Origin: Basidiobolus heterosporus B8920
Taxonomy: Eukaryota; Basidiobolomycota; Basidiobolomycetes; Basidiobolales; Basidiobolaceae
DNA length: 27,480 nt
Assembly (NCBI GenBank): GCA_000697455.1
Contig: JNET01032489.1
Coordinates: forward strand, 1-27,480
Direction: 5' to 3'
Each line of letters begins with the position of its first letter. The first letter of the stretch is position 1. Both the position numbers and the translations under genes were made by a program. Shown in pieces: positions 2 through 22,067 of this stretch. The notes below the pieces were generated by a model that saw nothing but the letters and a program-made list of their open reading frames with translations, was not told the DNA's origin and did no database searches.

Positions 2-970
2 TCAGGCCCAGGAGGTAATGGCGGTGGTGAGGGACCAGGATACGGTGCAGGAGGAAATGGCGGCGATTCTGGCCCTGGATCCGGAGCTGGTGGTAATGGA
101 GGAGCAGGCTCTTATGATACTGGCAACGGTGCTGGAGGAAATGGCAACGGCTCAGGCCCAGGAGGTAATGGTGGTGGTGGTGAGGGACCAGGATATGGAG
201 CTGGCCCAGGTGCTGGAGGTAATGGTGGTGGTGAAGGACCCGGATCCGGAGCTGGTGGCAACGGAGGAGCCGGCTCTTATGATACTGGCAACGGTGCTGG
301 AGGAAATGGCAACGGCTCAGGCCCAGGAGGTAATGGTGGTGGTGAGGGACCAGGTTATGGTGCAGGAGGAAATGGCGGCGGTTCTGGCCCTGGATCTGGA
401 GCTGGTGGTAACGGAGGAGCCGGCTCTTATGATACTGGCAACGGTGCTGGAGGAAATGGTAATGGCTCAGGCCCAGGAGGTAATGGTGGTGGTGAGGGAC
501 CAGGTTATGGAGCTGGCCCAGGTGCTGGAGGTAATGGCAACGGCTCAGGCCCAGGAGGTAATGGTGGTGGTGAGGGGCCAGGATATGGTGCCGGCCCAGG
601 TGCTGGAGGAAACGGTGGTGGTGAAGGACCTGGATCTGGAGCTGGAGCTGGTGGTAACGGAGGAGCAGGCTCTTATGATACTGGCAACGGTGCTGGAAGA
701 AATGGCAATGGCTCAGGCCCCGGAGGTAATGGTGGTGGTGAGGGACCAGGATATGGTGCAGGAGGCAATGGTGGCGGTTCTGGCCCTGGAACTGGCGGCA
801 ATGGATCGGGAGGCGATCAGGATTGCGAGACTGAATCAGGTCCGGGTAATAACGGTAATGGTGCTGGTGGGGGAAACTCAGGCCCTGGCTACGGAGGCCC
901 AGGTAGTGAAGGTACTGGACTTGGAGGGAACATTGGAGGCAATGGAGGCGGAGGAGCGGGATCCTATGAC
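2..970 (+). repeat. Imperfect coding tandem repeat, roughly 150-165 bp period
   Basis: Long near-identical blocks, for example those around 100-200, 265-365 and 415-515, repeat with in-frame length changes. Smaller nested units (CCAGGAGGTAATGGTGGTGG and relatives) recur inside them. All spacings seen are multiples of three, so copy-number changes keep the protein frame. Expect assembly collapse and allele length variation here. Confidence 0.8.
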
Positions 971-988
971 ACTTCCAACCTTCTTTGA
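2..988 (+). CDS. Glycine-rich repeat protein, 5'-truncated
   Basis: The reading frame opens at the window edge at base 2 and runs 328 codons to TGA at 986-988, so the N-terminus is missing. The translation is almost entirely Gly, Asn, Ser, Pro, Ala and Glu, built from modules such as GPGGNGGGEGPGYGAG and GSYDTGNGAGGNGNGS. The SYDTGNG block recurs at about 110, 275, 425 and 671, spaced 165, 150 and 246 bp, and a last degenerate copy (SYDTSN) ends the protein. The only Cys visible lies in a DQDCETES interruption near 823-840. No catalytic domain is visible. Such composition suits an extracellular, wall or matrix protein, but this is inference because any signal peptide is outside the window. 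A second frame stays open across the repeat and encodes a Val/Met/Glu-rich string. I treat it as a shadow, because the Gly-rich frame ends in a unit-matching C-terminus and has codon variation at third positions. Confidence 0.75.
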   Translation, partial: SGPGGNGGGEGPGYGAGGNGGDSGPGSGAGGNGGAGSYDTGNGAGGNGNGSGPGGNGGGGEGPGYGAGPGAGGNGGGEGPGSGAGGNGGAGSYDTGNGAGGNGNGSGPGGNGGGEGPGYGAGGNGGGSGPGSGAGGNGGAGSYDTGNGAGGNGNGSGPGGNGGGEGPGYGAGPGAGGNGNGSGPGGNGGGEGPGYGAGPGAGGNGGGEGPGSGAGAGGNGGAGSYDTGNGAGRNGNGSGPGGNGGGEGPGYGAGGNGGGSGPGTGGNGSGGDQDCETESGPGNNGNGAGGGNSGPGYGGPGSEGTGLGGNIGGNGGGGAGSYDTSNLL

Positions 989-1533
989 GATGGATACTAA
1001 ATCTTTATGTACCTCATTGAATCTACTTCGTGTCTCAATTTGAATTTATCCACCCAATTCTCGTCATTCCCAATTTGTATCGAATATTTCCCAGCTAACT
1101 CATCCCGGAATATATCATAGATATTAATAAAAAAATTGATCTGTTCTAATCCTCTAATACCGCTGTGTGCTTATTTAAATCGGTGGTTTCTAAGGATTTA
1201 CACGTTACTACTTGGACACATACCTACAAAACCTCTTTGGCGTTTGATAAAGTAGGTTTGGGTGATATCTCTTGATGAGCTATTTATTTTAAAGTTAAAT
1301 TAGTGAGCCTCAATGTAGTTACTGGGGTAGATATGATGCTTAAGTATTAACGGAGTTACTGGAGACAAGTTGATGTGGGAGTTCAAATTACATTTGGGGG
1401 ATTAATTGGAAGGTGTGGAGAATATTACAATGTACAAACTGAAAGGACGAAAAGAATATGTGACAAGGGTTATTTTGAGCGATATGTACATAGAATGATT
1501 TGAGTATGCATTAAATGCAGAGGATGTTTTCGG
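989..1533. other. Intergenic, convergent gene ends
   Basis: This AT-rich spacer lies between the 3' ends of the Gly-rich gene (+) and the alpha-arrestin gene (-). AATAAA at 1126-1131, 138 nt past the first stop, is a plausible poly(A) signal for the plus-strand gene. I see no other coding or RNA signal. Confidence 0.5.
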
Positions 1534-5252: not shown

Positions 5253-8205
5253 ATGTCCATATCCTCAGCCGCAGTATCTCAGTTCAAGTCCTTAATATGG
5301 TACCACTTGGACCATGACCTTATAGAAAACGCCACTTTTTTTGCTGAAAGATTACATGCTTATGCGACGTTAGACGAAGAAACACAATACCTTCTTGCCA
5401 AGTGTCTACTCAGAAGTAAAAAGTACCATAGCGCCTATCATGTTTTACGTAATCCACAAACGTTCTCAGGAAAATTCCTCCTCGCCAAATGCTGCATATC
5501 CATAGAAAAGCTAGAAGAGGCCGAGAGGTTGCTCCTTTCACTTTTGGAAGACGAGAGCATCACATACGAAAAATTCAATCTAGGTGAGTCCAGGGAACAT
5601 CATGTTGATGTGTCGAAATAGCTTTATTAACCAGTTGGTTCATTTATCAGATACCATTGATCATCGAAATCGGTTCAATGGTCCCGATCAAAGTGTGGTT
5701 TGTTTTAATCTTGGATTAGTGTACAGGTAGCCGATCACTTTATCTCTCCATATTTTGATCCTTTTCACTTTGATCCCTCTCACCAACATCAATAATCATC
5801 AATAGAAAACTGGAGCGTCAAGCAGATGCCGAGAGGCAATTTTCCAAATGTCTTGAGCTCAATCCATTTCATTGGGCCGCTTTCGAGAATGTGTGCTCTA
5901 TCAAAAAGGGTACGTCGATACTTTAACTGATGATTATAACACGGAACGATGATACTAACACCTAACCCTAATCTAGGGACTGACATAGATATCAACTCCG
6001 TCATCGATTTGAATAAAGCCTTTCAAATACTCAACCAGGAAACGAGTAAACTGGAACAAGGGAGTGTGATACCCGCAGGACAAACTAAACCACACATCAA
6101 AGGGCCCACAATACTCAAACAAAGAATTCCGATACCCAAGGCGGTGTCCAAAAACCCTCTACGATCCAGGTTGGTGGTATTTTTACTTTTCCTAGCCTCA
6201 GTTTGATCCTAACTTATTCATTCTCTCTATTAAGTACGACAACAATTCGACCAAGCAGTCAAATCCTTTCTCGTAGTGTTTCTACCGAATCCAGTTTACG
6301 GAAACCTACACTCCAAAATCCCATATCTCTTCGCACCAAGCAGGAGGCGAACTCGAACACTGTCAAAAAGGTATAGACTCTCTTTCCTTCGAAGCTCACA
6401 CAGGCCAAACTAACATGTTGTATCTAGAACCCTAGCATTAGCAAAAACAAGTCCGGGACGTTGCCACCCAACAATGTAGTTGGATTAAGGACCAGAAAAA
6501 TAGTCACCTCTGTCCTGGCAAATCCATCAGCTTCTCCTACCAAAACTAGACAAACTACCGAACTATCCAAGCTCATGAAGAGCACCGCGATGAATACACA
6601 CAAAGTAAACAACATGAAGCATTACCTTGTATGTCTATTGAATACTCAACTGTTTATTCCAGGGCACCGATATGCTCACTGCTGCGCAGAGAACTAAGCG
6701 AATTCGCTTCGAGGCCGACAAACTTCTGGAAAATGTAGACATCGGGAAGAAAGTCAAAGTTGAAACGGTATTCCAGAGCCATTAGCATTTGATAGTCGAA
6801 ACATTTTATTAATATTTGACTACTCTCAGATCATTCCAGCTGAAGACGATAAACGCAATAGAAGCAGTCTTACCAACTTTGGCAAATCACAAAGCATGAG
6901 CCAGGAAATTCATGACAAAAGAAGAGGCACCGAGATCATTGTCAAATTGTTACGCCAGATTGGACAATCCCTCCTGCATTTACAGAGCTATAGCTGTGCT
7001 AAAGCTTTGGAAGCATTCTCTTTGCTTCCTACCTCCCAGTTTAATACGGGATGGGTGCTTGCCCGTGTTGGAAAAGCTTACTTTGAGCTAGCTAGATACA
7101 AAGAGGTATGAAGATATGTTCACATCTCAACGCTGTTCTTCACCTCACAATCCCTACCCTCCTAGGCTGAAGAAAAATTCGAGCAAATGAGACTTCTTGA
7201 ACCTTATCGTTTAAGTGGCCTTGAGATTTACGCAACTACTTTGTGGCACCTGCGAAAAGAAGTAAACCTCAGTCACCTTAGTCATGAATTAATGGCCATG
7301 GATAGAGAATCCCCACAATCCTGGTTTGCCATAGGAAACTGTTATAGCTTGAAACAAGAGCATCAATCGGCCATTCGATGCTTCAAACGAGCCATTCAAT
7401 TAGATCCAACCATGGCTTATGGCCATACTCTGTGTGGACACGAATGCATTGCGGTGGAAGAATATGATAATGCCATGATTCATTTCAGAAGTGCGCTACG
7501 CTTGGATCCCAATCACTACAATGCCTGGTACAGTCCATTCAATACAACCGCAACCAATCCCCTTTCACTCAACTCCATATTTAGGTACGGTATGGGAATC
7601 ATCGCATTGAAAACCGACAAAGTGCCCACTGCCAAGTACTACTTTTCCAAAGCAGTAGGGATCAACCCCACAAATAATGTCCTTCTCTGTTGTGTTGGCA
7701 CAGTAAGTCCTAGCAAATCCTCCATGTATGCGAATCAACGTATTCTTAGCTATTTTGACTTGGATTTTCTTAGGTTCTAGAGAAATCTGGGAAATTATCT
7801 GAAGCATTACGGTGGTATCAAGCCGCTCAGAAATCCAATCCAGAAAGCCCCTTTCCTAAGCTCAAGATAGCCAAAGCATTGATGGCTCTTGGAAGATGTG
7901 AGGTAACCGCGTGATTTCTAACTGACATTGGAATAGTGATTCGATGCTGACGCTCTTAATAGGAAGCATTGCCTCTCTTCGAACATCTCAAGGAGGTGTA
8001 TCCTCAAGAAGCTGGTATTCGCTACATGATAGGCCAAGCACTCAAAAAATTAGGAAACACTTCGGATGCATTGATGGAATTCACCAAAGCACTTGATATG
8101 GATTGCAAGAATACCAACATCATAAGGAACGCCATAGACACTCTTCCCTTATCGGAGGCTGATATAGGGACCAAGCATGAAGATGGGATGATAAAGGCAT
8201 TTTAA
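5253..8205 (+). CDS. CDC27: APC/C subunit 3 (Cdc27), TPR scaffold
   Basis: Twelve exons: 5253..5583, 5651..5726, 5806..5909, 5977..6169, 6235..6370, 6428..6628, 6663..6767, 6830..7105, 7166..7527, 7585..7702, 7774..7902 and 7963..8205. Total 2274 nt, 757 residues, close to the usual family length. Residues 1-165 are the N-terminal APC3 TPR block (FLLAKCCISIEKLEEAERLL, LGLVYRKLERQADAERQFSK). Residues about 166-400 are a basic low-complexity linker. Residues about 405-745 are the C-terminal TPR superhelix with diagnostic strings CFKRAIQLDPTMAYGHTLCG and LDPNHYNAWYGMGIIALKTD. Cdc27 dimers bind the C-box and IR tail of Cdc20/Cdh1 and Apc10 in the anaphase-promoting complex. Stop is TAA 8203-8205. 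The start ATG at 5253 follows ACACC and is the first in frame. Confidence 0.93.
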
Positions 8206-9426: not shown

Positions 9427-10854
9427 ATGGCGTCTCTATTGTCAAAGTTGGTGACTGTTTTGATTACTCTAGCTTTTGTGGGATATTCGGAAGCTGCGTA
9501 TAATTGCGATGCTTCCGCTTGTGCACTGCCAAAATGTAACTGTGCGTCCGCCAACCCGCCAGGCGGAATAGCTGCTACTAATGCACCACAATTCGTAACC
9601 ATTACATTTGATGATGCCATTCAAGCATATACCTTTCCTGCCGCCCTCGATATTTTATCTAATCATAAGAATCCCAATGGCTGCCCGGCATTGGGAACCT
9701 TCTATGTCAGCACCCAGTATACTGACTACAATCTAGTGACTCAGTGGTACGGTATGGGCCACGAAGTCGCCTGCCATACCATGAACCACGTTGGAAACCC
9801 TTCTAAGGAAGAAATAGGTGGATCACGTATGGCCATCAACTCCTTTGGTGGTATTCCAAGAGGCAAACTAACCGGATTCCGCTCCCCTTTCCTAAATTAT
9901 TCAGCAGCCACTTTCCAGAATGCTGCCGAGCTTGGCTTCGAGTATGACTCCAGTTTGACAGCCTTGGGAACAGACTCATTTTGGCCATACACTTTGGATA
10001 ATGGCATCGCTAATGATTGCTACTCTGGAATCTGTGACACTGGTCTGAAACTTCCGGGTTTCTGGGAGATTCCTATGTACGCCATTATGGACGGTGCTAC
10101 TCCACATCTTATGGATCCAAATCTGGATTCTAAGCCTGAGACCGTTCTTCAGTGGTTAAAGGATAACTTCAATAGACACTACAATGGAAACCGATCCCCA
10201 TTTGGGATATATCTTCATCCTGCGCATATTTCCAAGTCACCTGGATTGAACTACCCCCAAGAGCAGGTCAAGATGCTTAACGAATTCGTCACATGGGTAT
10301 CGCAACAAGCTGATGTTTGGTTCGTGAATAACCAACAGCTATTGTCTTGGATGAAGAATCCTGTAGACAAGTCTAAAATGGGGGGTTTCGCTGCTGTCAA
10401 ATGTCAAACCAAAGCTGAAACCCAGGAAATCTGCAATGGTGTTGCTGATGTAAAAGGAGGCCAGATTGATGCTGGGTTACCAGAGAGATGCAATTTTCCC
10501 GGTGGATCATTCAGCACCTGCTACGGCTGTCCAGCTGCTGAACCTAGCGTGGCCAATCCTGTACCTGGACGTGCCATTACTGCCGGAGCCCCTGGTGCGC
10601 GTTGTCCCGTCCCAGATAACTGCGACACTCTATGGTGGGATCCAGTAGGCTGCAAGTGCTTGTGCCAAAACGATTCATGTAACTACATTGATAACAGCAA
10701 ACCAATTGATTTGAACGGTGGCAACAAAACAGATGGAAAAGGTAATACGGCAGCTAGTGGAAAGAATGGAACAAGTACAGCTGCAAATATCCCAGCATAC
10801 TCGACATTTTTGGCCGTATTGGTTCCTATCACCGCAATACTGAGTAGACATTAA
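9427..10854 (+). CDS. Secreted, GPI-anchored chitin deacetylase (CE4 polysaccharide deacetylase)
   Basis: A single uninterrupted ORF of 475 residues. It has an N-terminal signal peptide (hydrophobic 4-20, likely cleavage after SEA-23). The CE4 catalytic domain spans about 50-310: TFDD at 60-63 supplies the base/metal Asp; H117 and H121 in HTMNH are the zinc-site histidines; R152 in FRSPF is motif 3; H264 in GIYLHP is the acid-site His. It hydrolyses N-acetyl groups of chitin to give chitosan at the wall or plasma membrane. Residues about 335-425 form a Cys-rich module (CNFPGGSFSTCYGC, CKCLCQNDSC) not needed for CE4 chemistry, possibly substrate-binding. A Gly/Asn/Thr-rich spacer and a hydrophobic C-terminus (AYSTFLAVLVPITAILS) indicate a GPI-anchor signal. 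All neighbours with complete models are split genes, so the lack of introns stands out. Confidence 0.92.
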   Translation: MASLLSKLVTVLITLAFVGYSEAAYNCDASACALPKCNCASANPPGGIAATNAPQFVTITFDDAIQAYTFPAALDILSNHKNPNGCPALGTFYVSTQYTDYNLVTQWYGMGHEVACHTMNHVGNPSKEEIGGSRMAINSFGGIPRGKLTGFRSPFLNYSAATFQNAAELGFEYDSSLTALGTDSFWPYTLDNGIANDCYSGICDTGLKLPGFWEIPMYAIMDGATPHLMDPNLDSKPETVLQWLKDNFNRHYNGNRSPFGIYLHPAHISKSPGLNYPQEQVKMLNEFVTWVSQQADVWFVNNQQLLSWMKNPVDKSKMGGFAAVKCQTKAETQEICNGVADVKGGQIDAGLPERCNFPGGSFSTCYGCPAAEPSVANPVPGRAITAGAPGARCPVPDNCDTLWWDPVGCKCLCQNDSCNYIDNSKPIDLNGGNKTDGKGNTAASGKNGTSTAANIPAYSTFLAVLVPITAILSRH

Positions 10855-11134: not shown

Positions 11135-13035
11135 ATGTCAGAAAAAGACTTGGACTTGTGGAGAACTTCTCGCCAGGAATTTTCCGAGAGGATTCAACAG
11201 AAGATTCGTAAACGGAATTTGATACATCCTGAAAAAACTAGGAAATACTCGCAACCTAGTTCTGAAGAGGTGGTGGGAGAGAAATCAACTAGGGAATCTC
11301 AGAGAACATGTACACAACAAAGTGTCACTTTACCTGAATATAATATACGTCCAAAATCTACCTTAAAAAACCTGAAATATATCACAAGTTCTATCGAAAA
11401 TGGCGATCTGGTAACCACAATTTTATTCTCCACAAAAGAACTATCTTTTCACAGCAGCCCTTTTATTCTTCCTCCTCGTTCATTTATTAACCTCCCTTCA
11501 ATCTTAGGAAGATCGAATGGCTAACGTGTACAATGATTATGCGCAACATTTCATCGATACAAGCAAAAGACCCCAGAACTTTGTTCGTGACGCGGAGTTG
11601 GCACAACGCTTTGATGAGTTTGTTACTTCTAATGGAAATTTAAACAACCATCTCTCTATTGATCTTCTGTTGCCATAGATACCCTAAACTTAAAGAGCTA
11701 GCAAAGTTGAAGAATCAATTGGTTGCTGACCGTGCAACCCCTCCTATGTATTTACAGGCAGATTTAAGGACGTACGATCTACGGCTGTTGGATACGAAAT
11801 TCGATGTGATTTTGATCGATCCACCACTGGAAGAGTAAGTGGGCGGGTCTTACTTGATAGATCGGCACGATCAGGAATTATTGACCTCTTTCTTCAAACA
11901 GATATTGTCGTAGGTCACCTATGATTGCTGGCACGAATAGGGATTTTTGGACGTATGAGGAATTAATATCCTTTTGGGAACGCATTAGCTCCCCTCTCCC
12001 TTTGGCTTGTTCACTTTCGTATCATGCCTTAACATATATCTAGGCGAGTCTTCGCATCGAGGAGATTGCTGCCAATCCGTCATTTATCTTCATTTGGTCA
12101 GGAAGTGCGGAAGGGCTGGATCTTGGTCGAAGATTACTTTCGAAATGGGGCTATCGTAGATGTGAGGATATTGTCTGGACCAAGACAAATCGAACTTGGG
12201 AGGTATTTTTGTGGGTTGTAATGTATTTTGTATCGTGTATATCGCTCAATCTCCATCACTGTTTAGGGAAGTCGTTTTATAGAAGGAAAATCGGTTTTTC
12301 AGCACACAAAAGAGCATTGTCTCATGGGTATCAAGGGGACGGTACGGAGAAGTACAGATGGGCATTTTATTCACTGCAACGTGGACACGGATATCATCAT
12401 TTCTGAAGAGCCTTCACATGGAAGTCAGTCTTGGTAGCTATCTAGTCCTTCTTTATTTCCGTATGGCTAATCTTCATGTAACACACCAGGCACGGCCAAA
12501 CCCGAGGAAATTTATCACATCATCGAGCATTTCTGCTTAGGTAGACGTAGGCTTGAACTCTTTGGAGAGGTAACGCATCGAATAACTTAATCAGCATATT
12601 GTTCAATTTAATCTTACCGAGTACACGCATTCAGAACCATAACATCCGTCCTGGTTGGGTTACTGTGGGTCAACGGATTACTGGATCAAATTACAACTCA
12701 ACCAAGTACAACTCATATTTTGCAGGCCCAAATGGGCATCTACTCGGTGAAAGCCCAGGTAATGGCCGTTACTGCTTCGGCACTAACTCATGTCTTGCTT
12801 TAATGAGAACCAGCTAACATGAAATTTCATTTATCCAGAAATCGAGGCACTGAGGCCGCGCTCACCACCACCTCGAGATGGTTCAAACAAATCGACACCC
12901 AAGAAAAAGTCCAATAATAACATGAACCCTACAGGAAATCCCAAATTCAATCTCTCACCATTGAATAACTCTGGTCTGTACAAAAATAATCTTGGCAATA
13001 ATATGAATCGGTCTTTTGGTGGGCCTAGATGGTAA
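11135..13035 (+). CDS. METTL14: METTL14-like subunit of the mRNA m6A methyltransferase (MT-A70 family)
   Basis: Nine exons: 11135..11410, 11508..11617, 11679..11834, 11902..11965, 12044..12202, 12267..12423, 12490..12569, 12635..12758 and 12839..13035. Total 1323 nt, 440 residues (human METTL14 is 456). Family hallmarks in order: [42 protein letters not shown] (D176-L179), [74 protein letters not shown], and [14 protein letters not shown]14 pairs with METTL3, forming the RNA-binding groove rather than catalysing; the DPPW catalytic motif of METTL3 is replaced here by DPPL, so this is the structural partner. The C-terminal tail is Asn/Ser-rich with little RGG, unlike animals. The intron between exons 4 and 5 is U12-type and is listed separately. 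Yeast Kar4 belongs to the same lineage. The exon 1 donor (CTG|GTAACC) is the least certain junction. Confidence 0.9.
11966..12043 (+). other. U12-type (minor spliceosome) AT-AG intron in METTL14
   Basis: The 78-nt intron begins ATATCCTTTT, an exact match to the U12-type AT-class 5' splice site, directly after the codon TTA. It contains TGCCTTAAC at 12025-12033, 8 of 9 matching the U12 branch consensus TTCCTTAAC. It ends ATCTAG, 11 nt past the branch A, with no polypyrimidine tract before the AG. Removing exactly this piece joins EEL to [10 protein letters not shown], which aligns residue for residue with human DDIMKLEIDEIAA. No GT-AG choice preserves frame with a normal intron size. Confidence 0.85.
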
Positions 13036-13474: not shown

Positions 13475-15713
13475 TCATGAGGCGGCCAAGCTCATGTTGT
13501 TTGTACTTTCTACAGAATGAATTTGGCTCTTTTCATCTGTCTCAGCTAGACTTACCCTTTCGTTGATAGGGGTTCTACAGAATGGACAGCTCGTAATGAG
13601 GATGGCACAGAGGGAACACAGTCCATCGTGTTTGCAAGGATATAGGGTGACCGTTGCCTGACCGTCAAAGCATATTGAACAAGGATTAATGTATTCACTA
13701 TGATCAGACTCTGAGATCGCTTGGTTTGTCTGCTTTTCTTGATCCACTTTCGGATATACGCCAGTAAGATACAGACTCTCAGGTAACTTTGCATAGTCAT
13801 TGAATGCTCGGAAGGGTTGAGCGGGTGGATACCTTGGAAATTTTCGAATTTTTGGGTGAGTCAAGAGTAGCCATGCTTGTAGATGTGCGAATCAAATATT
13901 ACCTGAAAGGTTCTTTACCAAAATTTACATTTACATGCTGAAATGAAGTGAGCGATACAGCCGGATAGAAGCCCCCCTCTTCCTCAAATCGCAACAGTTG
14001 TCTAGAACTGAATTCAAAAGCTGAACCAAGATCGACTCCGTTCAGATAGAATCGGATCAGTCCATAATCCATGTCCAGCAAGGCGCCTAAAACATCGCCT
14101 TCACTCCAGGAATTTACGCCGCCATAAGGAACAGGGTAGCCATCAGACTGTGAAAATCAGGTAAGGATCGGATGTTAAATTCTCAGATAATGATAAGTTT
14201 CGGTCTTGTAATGGTTGATATGCTTACCCAGGCCAACTTCCTTCGCCCATCGAAAGCAAATGAGTGATCATCATCACCCACTCCAACCCCTTCTTCAGGT
14301 CTGAAAGCGGTATACCTTGTGGCCCATCCGATTTGCATAATCCCAGAAGTAAGCAAGTGGACCTCGTAATACCAAGAGCCCTCCTTCGCGAACATTGTTC
14401 CTCGCACAGATTCGAAAGTAGTGCTATCATTACGTATCTGCACAACCAATACCATGATCAGAAAGTTATTTTATAAATCTGTAAATGGGAATCATCTTTA
14501 ACCTCCAACCCCGAGGGTACCCATTTTAATCGCGGTGTCGAATCTAACCAGTTTAAGGTAGCATTTACGCCTGACAATGCTTCTCTAGCTTCGCGGACAT
14601 CTTGGTCATAGTAGTAATGTAACTTTTCTCGGTCAGCTAGGATAACATATTAATGAAGATCCATAAATCTATCTCACTACTTTATATCATATCCTTATAC
14701 ATACCAAAAGCATGCCGTAACGACCAGGGAGCACATAACTCTAACTCCCGGAATCGATGCTCTGCTAAAACGCTATTCCTTTCATGTGTTGGTTTGGTTC
14801 GCCTCTTCGCGACGTTGAGAATGTGGTGGACAACCTCAGATCTGAGAATTCTCGCTTTGTTGTCACCTATGATAAAGATATGATATGTGAATTCCATATA
14901 ATTCGTGTATTTGATTTGCTGAGGAATATTACCAGTCATAGCAAATTTCTCTAAAGCAATCAGCGAAGCAAGTTTGACTTTATCATTTTCATCCAGTAAA
15001 CCGTAGATTAAACTGTTCAGAATCTCTTCCGTGAATATCATGGCGCTTACTTTGCCTAGAAAATATTTAGCACCTTCCACCTAAATAATTGACTTTATCT
15101 ACTATGGAAGGGACAACACACCAGCAAGACGTTCAGCTAAAACGCTCCATACAATGTATGCGTTGATCCGATATCTCGTGCGAAGATGTGGTCTAAATAA
15201 AGGGGCTAGAGATTTGGGTTACTTTCGACGCACATATTTGACCAGCTACAGCGCTCCTGCTCACTTACCGGCTTTGGTTTTTTGGAGCAAGTGATAATTG
15301 ATCCTATGTGCTGTTCTCACCGAAGGTAAAGCTGCTAATTCTGTGAGCAAGAAGCATTGAATAAAACGGAAACGTGGGCATATGAGGTGACGAGAAATAC
15401 CTATGATATGACATAAGAAAGCTGAAGATAAAGGATCCTCTTCTTCCAAAACTTCCACCATGGTGAGTACAATCTCAACGAATTCACTTTCTGTAGAACG
15501 TAGGAATTTATCAGTCAATAAAAGGAATAAGACATAAACCAACGGCAGCCTACCATCTTGTGAGAGAGCAATTAGTATGTCGGTAGCCTCTGAGAGGGCT
15601 TCTTTTTCACTTTCAGGGTTCATACTTTTACAAGCCTCTTTAATCAACCGAACATAACGAGTTCGCATGAAGGAACCGATTAGGGTTCCACTTAGTAACC
15701 GTCGAAGACCCAT
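13475..15713 (-). CDS. RSPRY1: RSPRY1-like protein (HEAT-like + SPRY + RING finger)
   Basis: Exons on the minus strand: a first exon ending at 15269, then 15205..15120, 15080..14705, 14636..14503, 14437..14228, 14147..13903 and 13832..13475; phases agree. From the only in-frame ATG of the first exon (15713) the product is 617 residues; human RSPRY1 is 576. The helical N-terminal part has family strings VLAERLAG, ASLIALEKFA and CAPWSLRHAF. The SPRY domain follows (FESVRGTMF, WYYEVHLLTSGIMQIGWAT, GVGVGDDDHSFAFDG, VNFGKEPFRYPP). The C-terminal C3HC4 RING reads CSICFDG, PCKHDGLCSLC, CPFC. A RING of this type suggests E3 ubiquitin-ligase activity. The first exon stays open upstream to 15788 without an ATG, and coding-like segments on the minus strand near 15860-16020 (EDFWVLRRLLYLPEDLLYN, TEGLGILRLPSIYPRIL) may be extra 5' exons, so the N-terminus is unresolved. 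Confidence 0.85.
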
Positions 15714-18395: not shown

Positions 18396-19084
18396 ATGCG
18401 TGGACATCCCAACAACAAGAAAGGAAACGTCAATACCGTTAACCGTCGTGTGGTCGCTACCGCAAATGTCCCATCATCCTCTGGAACATCTCTTTCCGAC
18501 AGGTACTGTAGTTCTTAATGGAGTTCCCAAGTCGCCCTTCTAGTACTTAACCAATTCTCGTGAATAGGTTCTCAAAGATTGCTGAGGCTCGTAAAATGGA
18601 GAGTACCGGGGTTAGTACGGACGGACCTCGTTTTAGTGTAAAATTGTCAGGTCGTCTGGGGGCTTTACCAACTGGTTCAACTTCTCGTCAAGATATCCAA
18701 CAAAGACTCGGTAACACTAAGAAGAACGCTGGTGGTATCTTAAGCCGGGTTGGTGGTGGAGTTTCCAAGAAGGCTGCCAACACTCCTAAAGCTCGTGCCA
18801 ACCCCAAGGGAAGTATATCTGTTCGTGGGGCAGCTGGAAATCAAGCACAGCCCCGTAATAATGGAAGAGGAGGGAGACCAGGTCGTGGTGGCCGTGGAGG
18901 ACGCGGAGGTCGTTCCAACAGTAGACCAGGACCTAAATCTAAGGATGATCTTGACAAAGAACTGGACAGTTTCATGATGAAAGATGAGAAAACCGCCAAA
19001 ACGCGTTTGGACGATGAATTAGAAGCATACATGAATACTCGAGAAGCAAACAATGAAGCACAATCAATGGAAACTGATTCATAA
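18396..19084 (+). CDS. FoP/CHTOP-like mRNA export adaptor (FoP_duplication family)
   Basis: Two exons, 18396..18502 and 18568..19084, total 624 nt, 207 residues. Donor GTACTG and acceptor GAATAG restore Arg in SLSDRFSKIAEA. The N-terminal SLSDRF string resembles the SLNERF start of animal CHTOP. The centre is basic (KKAANTPKARANPKG) followed by a Gly/Arg-rich RGG stretch (GRGGRGGRGGR), a likely RNA-binding and arginine-methylation region. The C-terminus holds two copies of the L-D-x-E-L-x-x-[FY]-M helix (LDKELDSFM, LDDELEAYM), the type of motif that binds the DEAD-box helicase UAP56/Sub2 in the TREX complex. It ends in a short acidic tail. The N-terminal exon would be lost if only the long ORF were annotated. 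ATG 18396 is the first in frame. Orthology to CHTOP rather than to another UAP56-binding adaptor is probable, not proven. Confidence 0.8.
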
Positions 19085-19365: not shown

Positions 19366-22067
19366 TCAACCCAACTCTTTCTCTCTTTTTTCAGTTAAAC
19401 TTTGTAATTCATCCCTCAGATGTTGGTTAAGAATACGCAGTCGATGAAGTTCATATTGCCATGTAGTATTTCCATCGGGTTCGAGATTTTGGAAAAGGTT
19501 ATCTGCGCCTATAGACTTTTGATTGGTTTGTGGTGAAGGTACGGAAGAAGTAACACTTCTATCATCCAAACACTCATCATCTTCTGATACTTCCTTGGAT
19601 TGACATAAAATAAATGTTGCAGGCTTCCCTTGTGTGGCATCTCCTGGGTAAAAGGTACTAACAATGGCTATCGAATGGCCATTCTTATTGATCATTTTAT
19701 GTCTCAGCTTTACGGTGGTGCCATCCGCCACTTGTTGAAGCGTCTTAGTCAGTACAGTAGCTCTGTCAAATCGGGTTGTCTGATAGAGTGAGGTTCCTAT
19801 CAACTCGTCCGGCGTGAAATCCAGGATCTGCTTGGAGTTTCTCGTGGCGTAAAGGTACATTCCATCCAATGTCAATTTAGACCAGAACTCGTGATTTGAC
19901 AAGCCACCACATAACTGAATTGCTTCCATGGATAGTCGATAAACTGGTCTTGGTCTACCTGTAAGTACAACGCATTTTCTCACTCTGCCATGATCAGTGT
20001 AAAGTTTACCCTGAACTTCGAACCAAAAGTATCCAGAATATCGGTTCTTAATTCGATACACGTAATTAAATGGTTCCGAATTTTCCGACATGTTCATTGA
20101 TTCTCTTAATTCTCGCATAAACAGGGCTAAATCAGTAGGTTCGCAAAGCATGGAGATGTTTTGCCCGATTAGCTCTTCTGCTTTGTATCCCAATAGTTTT
20201 TTGCAACTGTACGAACAGTAAAGAAATATCCCTTTAAGTGATAGGACGTGGATGAAATCATCAGAGTGCTCCAAGAGCATTTGATTCCAGTTCTTGAGTG
20301 TCTCTTCCTGGTTTGATTGCTCATCCACTTCCATAATCTCGTACACTTCTGAAGTAGCAGAGAAATCGGAAGATTCCGTTGAGGAAAGCATGTGGTCAGC
20401 TGAAGGTTTCTGAAATACTCCTGTGAAGATTGCAATCAATTAATTCAATAGATACAGCATCAGTGTAGTTATTGATGCAGACTTTACCAGAGCATAGAGA
20501 CGATGAGCCCATCATATACGTGCCATCTATTCCAAGGATGAATGGATTAATCAATTGCTCATGCGTGGCAGTGGATATGGATGACTTACTTTGCATCTTT
20601 TGGAGTATGCTATTAGGTTGCTCGATGAGGTTCTAAATGGGAGAACGAGTAAGCTGGTTGTATGGATTTACGGTCCTTCTTCAGCCTCAATACTCACTAC
20701 TTGAAATCCAATAAAATGCGTCACATCATCGCCATTTCCGAAAGCGATCGGTATGATGGTCAGTAAGTTCATGAACGGCTACCGAATTAAACTTCATTTT
20801 AGTGTTGGCCATGATGGCAGCGATCAAATCAGAATTGCGTTACCTGGCCTCCTTTCTTGTAGTTAACCAGCGAAATCTGGATTTCTTTTCTTTGGAATAT
20901 ATGCTTTTTGAGGTTGTGCACCGAGCTGTTGTCAGTGTATCGCCTGCGGGATCCACTGGTCACTTGGCCATCAGGTGATTGTAGAAATCGACAGTTTCTA
21001 CCGATTACTTCCACATCCGAATAACCAGTAAGATTCTCAAATGATTTACTAGCGTAGACCAATGGTAAGTCTGAACGACAAGCGTCCACTACACACACGA
21101 AGAATGAAATGAATGAGTGACCATAGGAAGTTCTACCTAACACGACTATTCTTACCCACGACAAAAGAGCAACTCATGTCCACAGGGCCAAGATGGATTT
21201 GCGGATCAGGGCTAAATAGAGGGAAGGTCAATCAATTTGTTGTTAGTCCACTCATTCCCAAAAAAATTATGTTGTATCTGGTAGAAACTAAATGAATAGT
21301 AATACGAACCGATTAGCGACTTTAGCCTAATTCATCAAAATTAGTACTGCTCAAGTGGGTAAGGAAATTAGAAAAAGCTAGTCTTTCTAGATATTTTCTA
21401 TATATACAGTAAATTACAATTCCTACCAGAATACTCAGCACATCAAAACCTGAATTGGAGTATAGTCCCGGAAAGTTACCTAGTGTCGGGATGGCTATTG
21501 GATTCATGGAATTAGAAACAAGGACGTGTATTGACAAGAACTATTCTCGTGACCACTGACATTTCCCAGGATCTGTGCTTATCCCGTTAAAGCTTACTCC
21601 AGCGGGGGCAGAGTAGCTACTATGAAAGTTAGGGCGGCTGTATTGAGAGCTGCACGAAGAGTCTAGGTGATTCATTAGAGACTCTTGAGTAGACTGGTTG
21701 AAAAGTTGGGAAGTCAGATAAGAATAAGAATAGGAGGTTTCTTCAACGTTTTCATTTGTTTTGGAGTTCAACATAGAGGTTTCCCCATTAGAATCTTCAT
21801 TGCTAAGAAGAAAGACAGAAGTGATGAAATTAGCTGTGATGTTTCTATTTAGAAGTACCTCCACAAGTCCTAGTTTTTTGTGCAGACAAGGTTTGCTTAC
21901 TAGTTTGGTTTTGAGAAATCATAAGTTGCTTCAGTTGTATTATGGTTTTTCTCAACTTCGGAGTTAGTCATAGACTGGATATATTGAGAGTTAGGAGTGG
22001 AGGAGTTCATATAATTTACATAATCTATATCCTCCTGCGTAAGATTGTTAAAGGGATTCTCCTCCAT
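19366..22067 (-). CDS. wc-1: White collar-1-type LOV/PAS blue-light receptor
   Basis: Nine exons on the minus strand: 22067..21901, 21802..21598, 21540..21427, 21326..21310, 21211..21156, 21088..20844, 20778..20698, 20632..20488 and 20420..19366. Total 2085 nt, 694 residues. The N-terminal 140 residues are Asn/Ser/Thr-rich. The LOV domain covers about 150-300, beginning PGLYSNSGFDVLSILAKVAN, with the flavin motif GRNCRFLQ (photoactive Cys219) and ending THFIGFQVNLIEQP, closely following fungal WC-1. PAS-B (about 390-490, with FIHVLSLKGIFLYCSYSCKK) and PAS-C (about 510-625) follow. The protein ends with a short coiled-coil-like helix (LHRLRILNQHLRDELQSL). No GATA zinc finger (CxxC...CxxC) is present, unlike Neurospora WC-1; DNA binding would need a WC-2-type partner. 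FAD binding and photoadduct formation are inferred from the intact Cys. Confidence 0.9.
21310..21326 (-). other. 17-nt microexon inside the WC-1-like LOV domain
   Basis: GCTAAAGTCGCTAATCG, flanked by AG (with TACTAAT branch-like sequence about 12 nt upstream) and GTTCGT, encodes AKVAN plus two bases of Arg. Including it yields SILAKVANRPDPQIHLGP, the expected start of the LOV core; skipping it shifts the frame. Confidence 0.8.

Follow-up and report, generated by a model that had tools for sequence, protein, structure and literature searches.

Minor, U12-type introns are already known as a class in early-diverging fungi: a survey counted 249 of them in Basidiobolus meristosporus (0.554%, the greatest density yet in a fungus) and 205 in Rhizophagus irregularis (PMC10639083, Larue and Roy 2023). 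Here we describe an intron of the same class, from the same or a neighbouring lineage, in a stretch of 27,480 nt of Basidiobolus heterosporus B8920 (contig JNET01032489.1, positions 1 to 27,480; hereafter the window). It is the fourth intron of the gene for METTL14, a subunit of the N6-methyladenosine (m6A) writer, and it begins with AT and ends with AG. The main text of the survey does not name METTL14 (0 occurrences; the supplementary lists were outside our scope) and does not contain the term 'AT-AG', and the intron may already stand in its supplementary lists. A literature search over titles and abstract openings found nothing on a minor intron in METTL14. The new addition is this single intron with its unusual ends.

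In humans, AT-AC introns make up 84% of A-type introns, and the AT-AN minor introns are promoted by CENATAC (PMC8280824). An AT start with an end other than AC is a known rare subtype, as in intron 4 of the window, the differences being that the present gene is fungal and that CENATAC was not detected in the assembly (no candidate was scored). The combination AT-AG has been supposed to be an inefficient intermediate between the AT-AC and GT-AG subtypes, and these ends, together with signs of age, lift the METTL14 intron above routine. We consider intron 4 to be a genuine U12-dependent A-type AT-AG minor intron at an old position in the gene of a Basidiobolus-like fungus, with a probability of roughly 0.85.

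The gene was identified by its product, which scored 425 bits against human METTL14 and 121 bits against METTL3 when the MT-A70 fold was compared, and on this sequence comparison it is a METTL14 orthologue, nearer to METTL14 than to METTL3. Its layout is given in the table below. Seven of the eight introns have GT-AG ends, the exception being intron 4, where ATATCCTTTT follows directly after a complete codon and fits the U12 5' splice-site pattern RTATCCTT. Downstream, TGCCTTAAC resembles the branch-site pattern TTCCTTRAC with one mismatch, and the intron terminates in TCTAG. The earlier note, made from the letters of this DNA alone, had placed the branch motif 11 nt before the terminal AG; by our count the distance from the end of the motif to the last base of the intron is 10 nt, and it is the two candidate branch adenosines that lie 11–12 nt from that base, the optimum having been given as 11–13 nt (PMC3584512). 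The same note had seen no polypyrimidine tract, which holds between the branch site and the AG (ATATATCTAG) but not further upstream, where a C/T-rich stretch occurs at about 11991–12007.

Features of the METTL14 locus in the window
Feature	Coordinates	Strand	Basis or remark
METTL14 orthologue, nine exons, 440-amino-acid product	11135..13035	+	gene model and translation
Intron 1, GT-AG	11411..11507	+	gene model
Intron 2, GT-AG	11618..11678	+	gene model
Intron 3, GT-AG	11835..11901	+	gene model
Exon 4, 3' end ...FWTYEEL	11902..11965	+	gene model; conserved with P0001, P0002 and others
Intron 4, putatively U12-type, AT-AG, 78 nt, phase 0	11966..12043	+	sequence, join test, gene model
5' splice site of intron 4, ATATCCTTTT	11966..11975	+	motif common to other U12-type introns of the assembly
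Branch-site motif of intron 4, TGCCTTAAC, one mismatch to TTCCTTAAC	12025..12033	+	motif search; 10 nt from intron end
3' end of intron 4, ATATATCTAG, without AC	12034..12043	+	sequence; TAG is an in-frame stop upon retention
Exon 5, carries first MT-A70 match	12044..12202	+	gene model, MT-A70 search
Intron 5, GT-AG	12203..12266	+	gene model
Intron 6, GT-AG	12424..12489	+	gene model
Intron 7, GT-AG	12570..12634	+	gene model
Intron 8, GT-AG	12759..12838	+	gene model

Neither motif is rare by itself in the window, as TATCCTT was observed 4 times against 5.6 expected and TTCCTTAAC with one mismatch 6 times against 8.5 expected. The unusual point is the pair of U12 motifs at a junction defined by the protein. 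The 5' site score was positive for intron 4 only (16.0, compared with −2.7 to −23.4 for the other seven introns), and its branch score was the highest of the eight (13.0, the next being 4.9); since the matrix was built from sites selected for those very U12 motifs, these scores give a contrast and no independent test.

Excision of 11966–12043 gave a protein that aligned without a gap with human METTL14 (WTWDDIMKLEIDEIAA) across the junction. All boundary pairs with the first intron base at 11925–11999, the last at 11990–12099 and a length of at least 25 were then compared, which yielded 1439 in-frame, stop-free joins. The AT-AG join 11966–12043 scored 217. The sole GT-AG join among them, 11953–12048, deleted the six residues YEELAS and scored 194, and was rejected; there were three GC-AG joins, the best scoring 183, and no AT-AC join. 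Joins of 78 nt shifted by a few bases scored 212 to 223, so that the protein fixes the length and the place of the intron and not the exact base. The register was chosen because of the U12 motifs and because an alanine stands directly after the junction in METTL14 of B. ranarum, Rhizophagus, Entrophospora and Endogone. Thus the sequence, the coordinates and the lack of a family-matching GT-AG solution claimed in the earlier note all stood, as did its assignments of the gene to METTL14 and of the DNA to an early-diverging fungus, and its U12-type AT-AG classification is very likely right; its residue-exact alignment across the junction held as a gap-free one, the exact base coming from the motif register.

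The assembly as a whole (8.1 Mb in 428 contigs, and possibly incomplete) was scanned for the same signals, with each pattern read backwards as the control. The strict pair TATCCTT...CCTTAAC, with 28–58 bases between, occurred 35 times compared with 4 times for the reversed pattern, and a looser AT-start pattern with a shorter branch motif 39 times compared with 14, so that about one third of the looser list is expected by chance. Judged from these motif counts, there are many U12-type introns in this assembly. When the flanking exons were joined and matched to protein domains, family homology spanned the junction in ten AT-AC examples (cofilin/GMF, CLP1, the GPN-type ATP_bind_1, VPS9, zf-C3HC, RhoGAP, PSP, zf-TFIIIC, BRCT and PI4K-beta) and in three GT-AG examples (Ras/Rab, TCP1 and Arf). 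CLP1 and GPN3 showed no gap at the junction against their best PDB relative; the VPS9 alignment had an indel some residues past the junction and that of PI4K-beta a one-residue gap near it. The CLP1- and GPN3-type AT-AC introns share the 5' and branch motifs with the METTL14 intron and are of similar length (64–81 nt, compared with 78 nt), but they end in AC, whereas the end of the METTL14 intron is AG, with no AC anywhere from its branch site to the junction.

The 39 AT-start matches represented 38 distinct sites, 17 of which were also within the 35 strict pairs. Intron ends were read by eye from the open frames at 37 of the 38 sites (the one on contig C410 was left out), and G-type introns were not part of this count. 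Site L004, in a frame that we take to be aldose-1-epimerase-like, was dropped because its CCTTAAC looks exonic, and ten looser sites were dropped as chance-like (L040, L041, L049, L050, L053, L054, L055, L056, L058 and L072). Among 26 plausible A-type introns, 21 fitted an AC end, METTL14 was the only clear AT-AG case by this reading and four were ambiguous (L009, L018, L062 and L073). AT-AG is therefore rare in this assembly, and the earlier statement that it is rarer than AT-AC applies here too. Homology across the junction was found for 10 of the 21 AC-fitting introns. As for the others, the Pfam matches of L013 and L037 fell below the cut-off, L033 had a match only beyond the junction, L028 had no match in the domain scan, and L001, L012, L036, L039, L042, L043 and L045 were left out of that scan, as was the ambiguous L062; L009 and L018 gave matches below the cut-off and L073 gave none in the same scan.

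Some sites of the scan lie close together or look alike. L033 and L071 (contig C408, 17180–17237 and 18176–18235) are A-type U12-like introns that lie on one strand, separated by approximately 1 kb; their frames match MyTH4 and RhoGAP and possibly belong to one gene with two minor introns. At L021 (contig C310, 18905–18962 and 19960–20021), two GTATCCTT...CCTTAAC pairs occur on the same strand, also approximately 1 kb apart. In both L001 and L043 the AT-AC-type candidate lies within a hydrophobic stretch, between S/T-rich and basic parts, and the two are perhaps paralogues sharing a minor intron.

The highest identity among the METTL14 matches listed was that of B. ranarum: it was 92% for the C-terminal half and, with the N-terminal query, 70% at a coverage of 90%, which by itself points to Basidiobolus or a close relative as the source of the window. 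The B. ranarum gene is annotated as two models, P0121 and P0009, on contigs both listed as 40,173 long. P0121 stops at PPLEE, ahead of exon 4, and P0009 begins with MVFIRLIIYALTYVQ, inside the equivalent of intron 4, and continues as ...ALTYVQ|ASLRIEE, compared with ALTYI*|ASLRIEE in the window (the intron itself translating there as HALTYI*). The branch site and the 10-nt branch-to-end spacing thus appear to be kept, as far as they can be read back from the protein. Since the last intron codon reads Q (CAR), the B. ranarum intron would end in AG or AA and not in AC, so that an end other than AC seems to be kept between Basidiobolus species; there is no retention stop at that codon. This evidence covers the 3' part of the intron, the start dinucleotide lying outside model P0009.

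In Glomeromycotina the models break at the same place. Those of Funneliformis, Gigaspora and Scutellospora continue after DEI as ISF or ISL (DEI|IS[FL]), which is the phase-0 translation of ATATCCTT followed by T or A, and others skip or replace exon 4. A junction was scored as intact when six residues on each side aligned without a gap and with at least six positive scores, and fungal models were chosen by organism name among the 140 proteins returned (16 from Glomeromycotina and eight from other fungi), N-terminal fragments ending before the junction, such as P0122–P0124 and P0127, being left out. Junction 4 was intact in four of the 16 Glomeromycotina models, in all eight from other fungi and in every one of the 91 other sequences that were 380 amino acids or longer; among the four, P0015 passes only narrowly and is visibly wrong. 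It seems that annotation allowing GT starts only causes these broken models. As proteins and not DNA were seen, a conserved intron is read into these species by inference: an A-type U12 intron probably lies at this METTL14 codon boundary in Glomeromycotina too, and intron 4 is probably ancient. The Acaulospora models read ...LNSLAH|ANLKIED and ...NSSSSIHY|ANLKIED, and the intron there would end in AC if the final codon were CAC or TAC, which we regard as a weak lead only.

The Glomeromycotina models broken or altered around junction 4 are P0003, P0004, P0006, P0010–P0014, P0015, P0042, P0134, P0139 and P0140.

Several observations weigh against this picture. Junctions 3 and 6 of the Glomeromycotina models were intact in only seven and eight of 16 respectively, compared with 14, 14, 16 and 16 for junctions 2, 5, 7 and 8. 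A model that skips exon 4 also has junction 3 damaged, and natural differences in length are scored as breaks too, since junction 5 passed in none of the 91 other sequences. The B. ranarum record has other errors, because P0121 differs at intron 2 too, carrying an extra stretch RFDDLEVEK...YPKLKEL that is likely an annotation error or else reflects a different intron. AT-AG has been called a disfavoured, poorly spliced intermediate (PMC3584512).

The searches of the assembly for the minor-spliceosome machinery (U12, U6atac, U11, U11-48K, CENATAC, 25K and 65K) count on the same side, being all negative. The Rfam models of the U12, U6atac and U11 RNAs gave no match in the 8.1 Mb (42 of 488, 46 of 382 and 39 of 550 candidates were scored), and neither did short patterns for U6atac and U12 with up to three mismatches. 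The protein searches scored between zero and two candidates each: there was no match for the U11-48K zinc finger or for CENATAC, a single sub-threshold match for U11/U12-25K in what is presumably a ubiquilin gene, and one match for U11/U12-65K in a gene that we take to encode a relative of the poly(A)-binding protein. The search set did not include U4atac or ZRSR2, and the control genomes that gave a signal were prokaryotes, with no eukaryotic positive control. The B. meristosporus genome is far larger than 8.1 Mb. With low power, no eukaryotic control and an assembly that may be partial, these negatives are uninformative and do not establish absence, and the dozens of U12 motifs kept in the assembly argue, as a matter of likelihood, that the machinery exists. 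The genome check proposed in the earlier note thus came out positive on the side of the introns and negative, at low power, on that of the machinery.

Minor splicing proceeds by recognition of the intron by U11/U12, followed by the exchange of U11 for U6atac. Applied to intron 4, U11/U12 would recognize ATATCCTTTT and GCCTTAAC, with U11, and then U6atac in its place, pairing with ATATCCTT and U12 pairing with CCTTAAC at the branch site. Exon 4 would then be joined to exon 5 in phase 0 to give a normal METTL14 protein; upon retention, translation would stop at the TAG that doubles as the 3' splice site, and the AG end may reduce the efficiency of splicing.

The retention stop is what could be cited for a further suggestion of the earlier note, that slow splicing of intron 4 lets minor-spliceosome activity gate the METTL14 level and RNA methylation. 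This would add to the minor-intron explanation and not replace it. We found nothing else in its support and consider it highly unlikely, as B. ranarum has Q at that codon and so does not keep the stop, and the survey favours neutral persistence of minor introns and did not find minor splicing raised in proliferating Rhizophagus cells (PMC10639083). METTL3, moreover, was not found in the assembly, the MT-A70 search having matched METTL14 exons only (a weak search, with two candidates scored). A broader scenario, in which the A-type intron at this boundary predates the Basidiobolus/Glomeromycotina split and a switch from AC to AG in Basidiobolus, kept in more than one species, makes METTL14 output and m6A sensitive to minor-spliceosome activity, is very unlikely as a whole.

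That the intron is real but belongs to the rare U2-type AT-AG introns handled by the major spliceosome would agree with the undetected minor-spliceosome parts, but we hold it to be extremely unlikely: the 5' motif is a perfect U12 site, the branch motif is near-perfect at a spacing called optimal (PMC3584512), and both are common to dozens of introns in the assembly. About equally unlikely is that the stretch is left unspliced in this strain as part of a decayed or mis-assembled copy; although retention meets an in-frame stop, the family sequence is preserved in the other eight exons, which have open frames, and the branch site, its spacing and the exon that follows are all retained in the near relative. 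An ordinary U2-type intron from the GT donor at 11953 (GTATGAGG) to the AG acceptor at 12048, in frame and stop-free as it is, is scarcely credible, as it would remove YEELAS, a stretch that is gap-free in animals and other fungi, and leave the tandem U12 motifs to chance.

For the preferred explanation, a U12-dependent AT-AG intron, two consequences follow. Because an end other than AC seems to be kept between species, the idea of a poor intermediate becomes testable in a natural gene. In B. ranarum and in the majority of the Glomeromycotina records that we examined, the non-GT start appears to have split or corrupted the METTL14 models, so that truncation or absence of the m6A writer in early-diverging fungi should not be deduced from annotation alone.

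Elsewhere in the window, neighbouring frames had Pfam matches to ANAPC3/TPR (5253–7777, + strand), polysaccharide deacetylase (9427–10851, + strand), a RING finger (13478–13864, − strand) and FoP_duplication (18560–19081, + strand). A PAS-domain protein is encoded at 19369–20439 (− strand), and together with a second frame at 20829–21164 (− strand) it presumably resembles a white-collar-type light sensor. An open frame of 341 codons at 18–1043 (+ strand) consists of a degenerate repeat of low complexity and is probably no ordinary gene.
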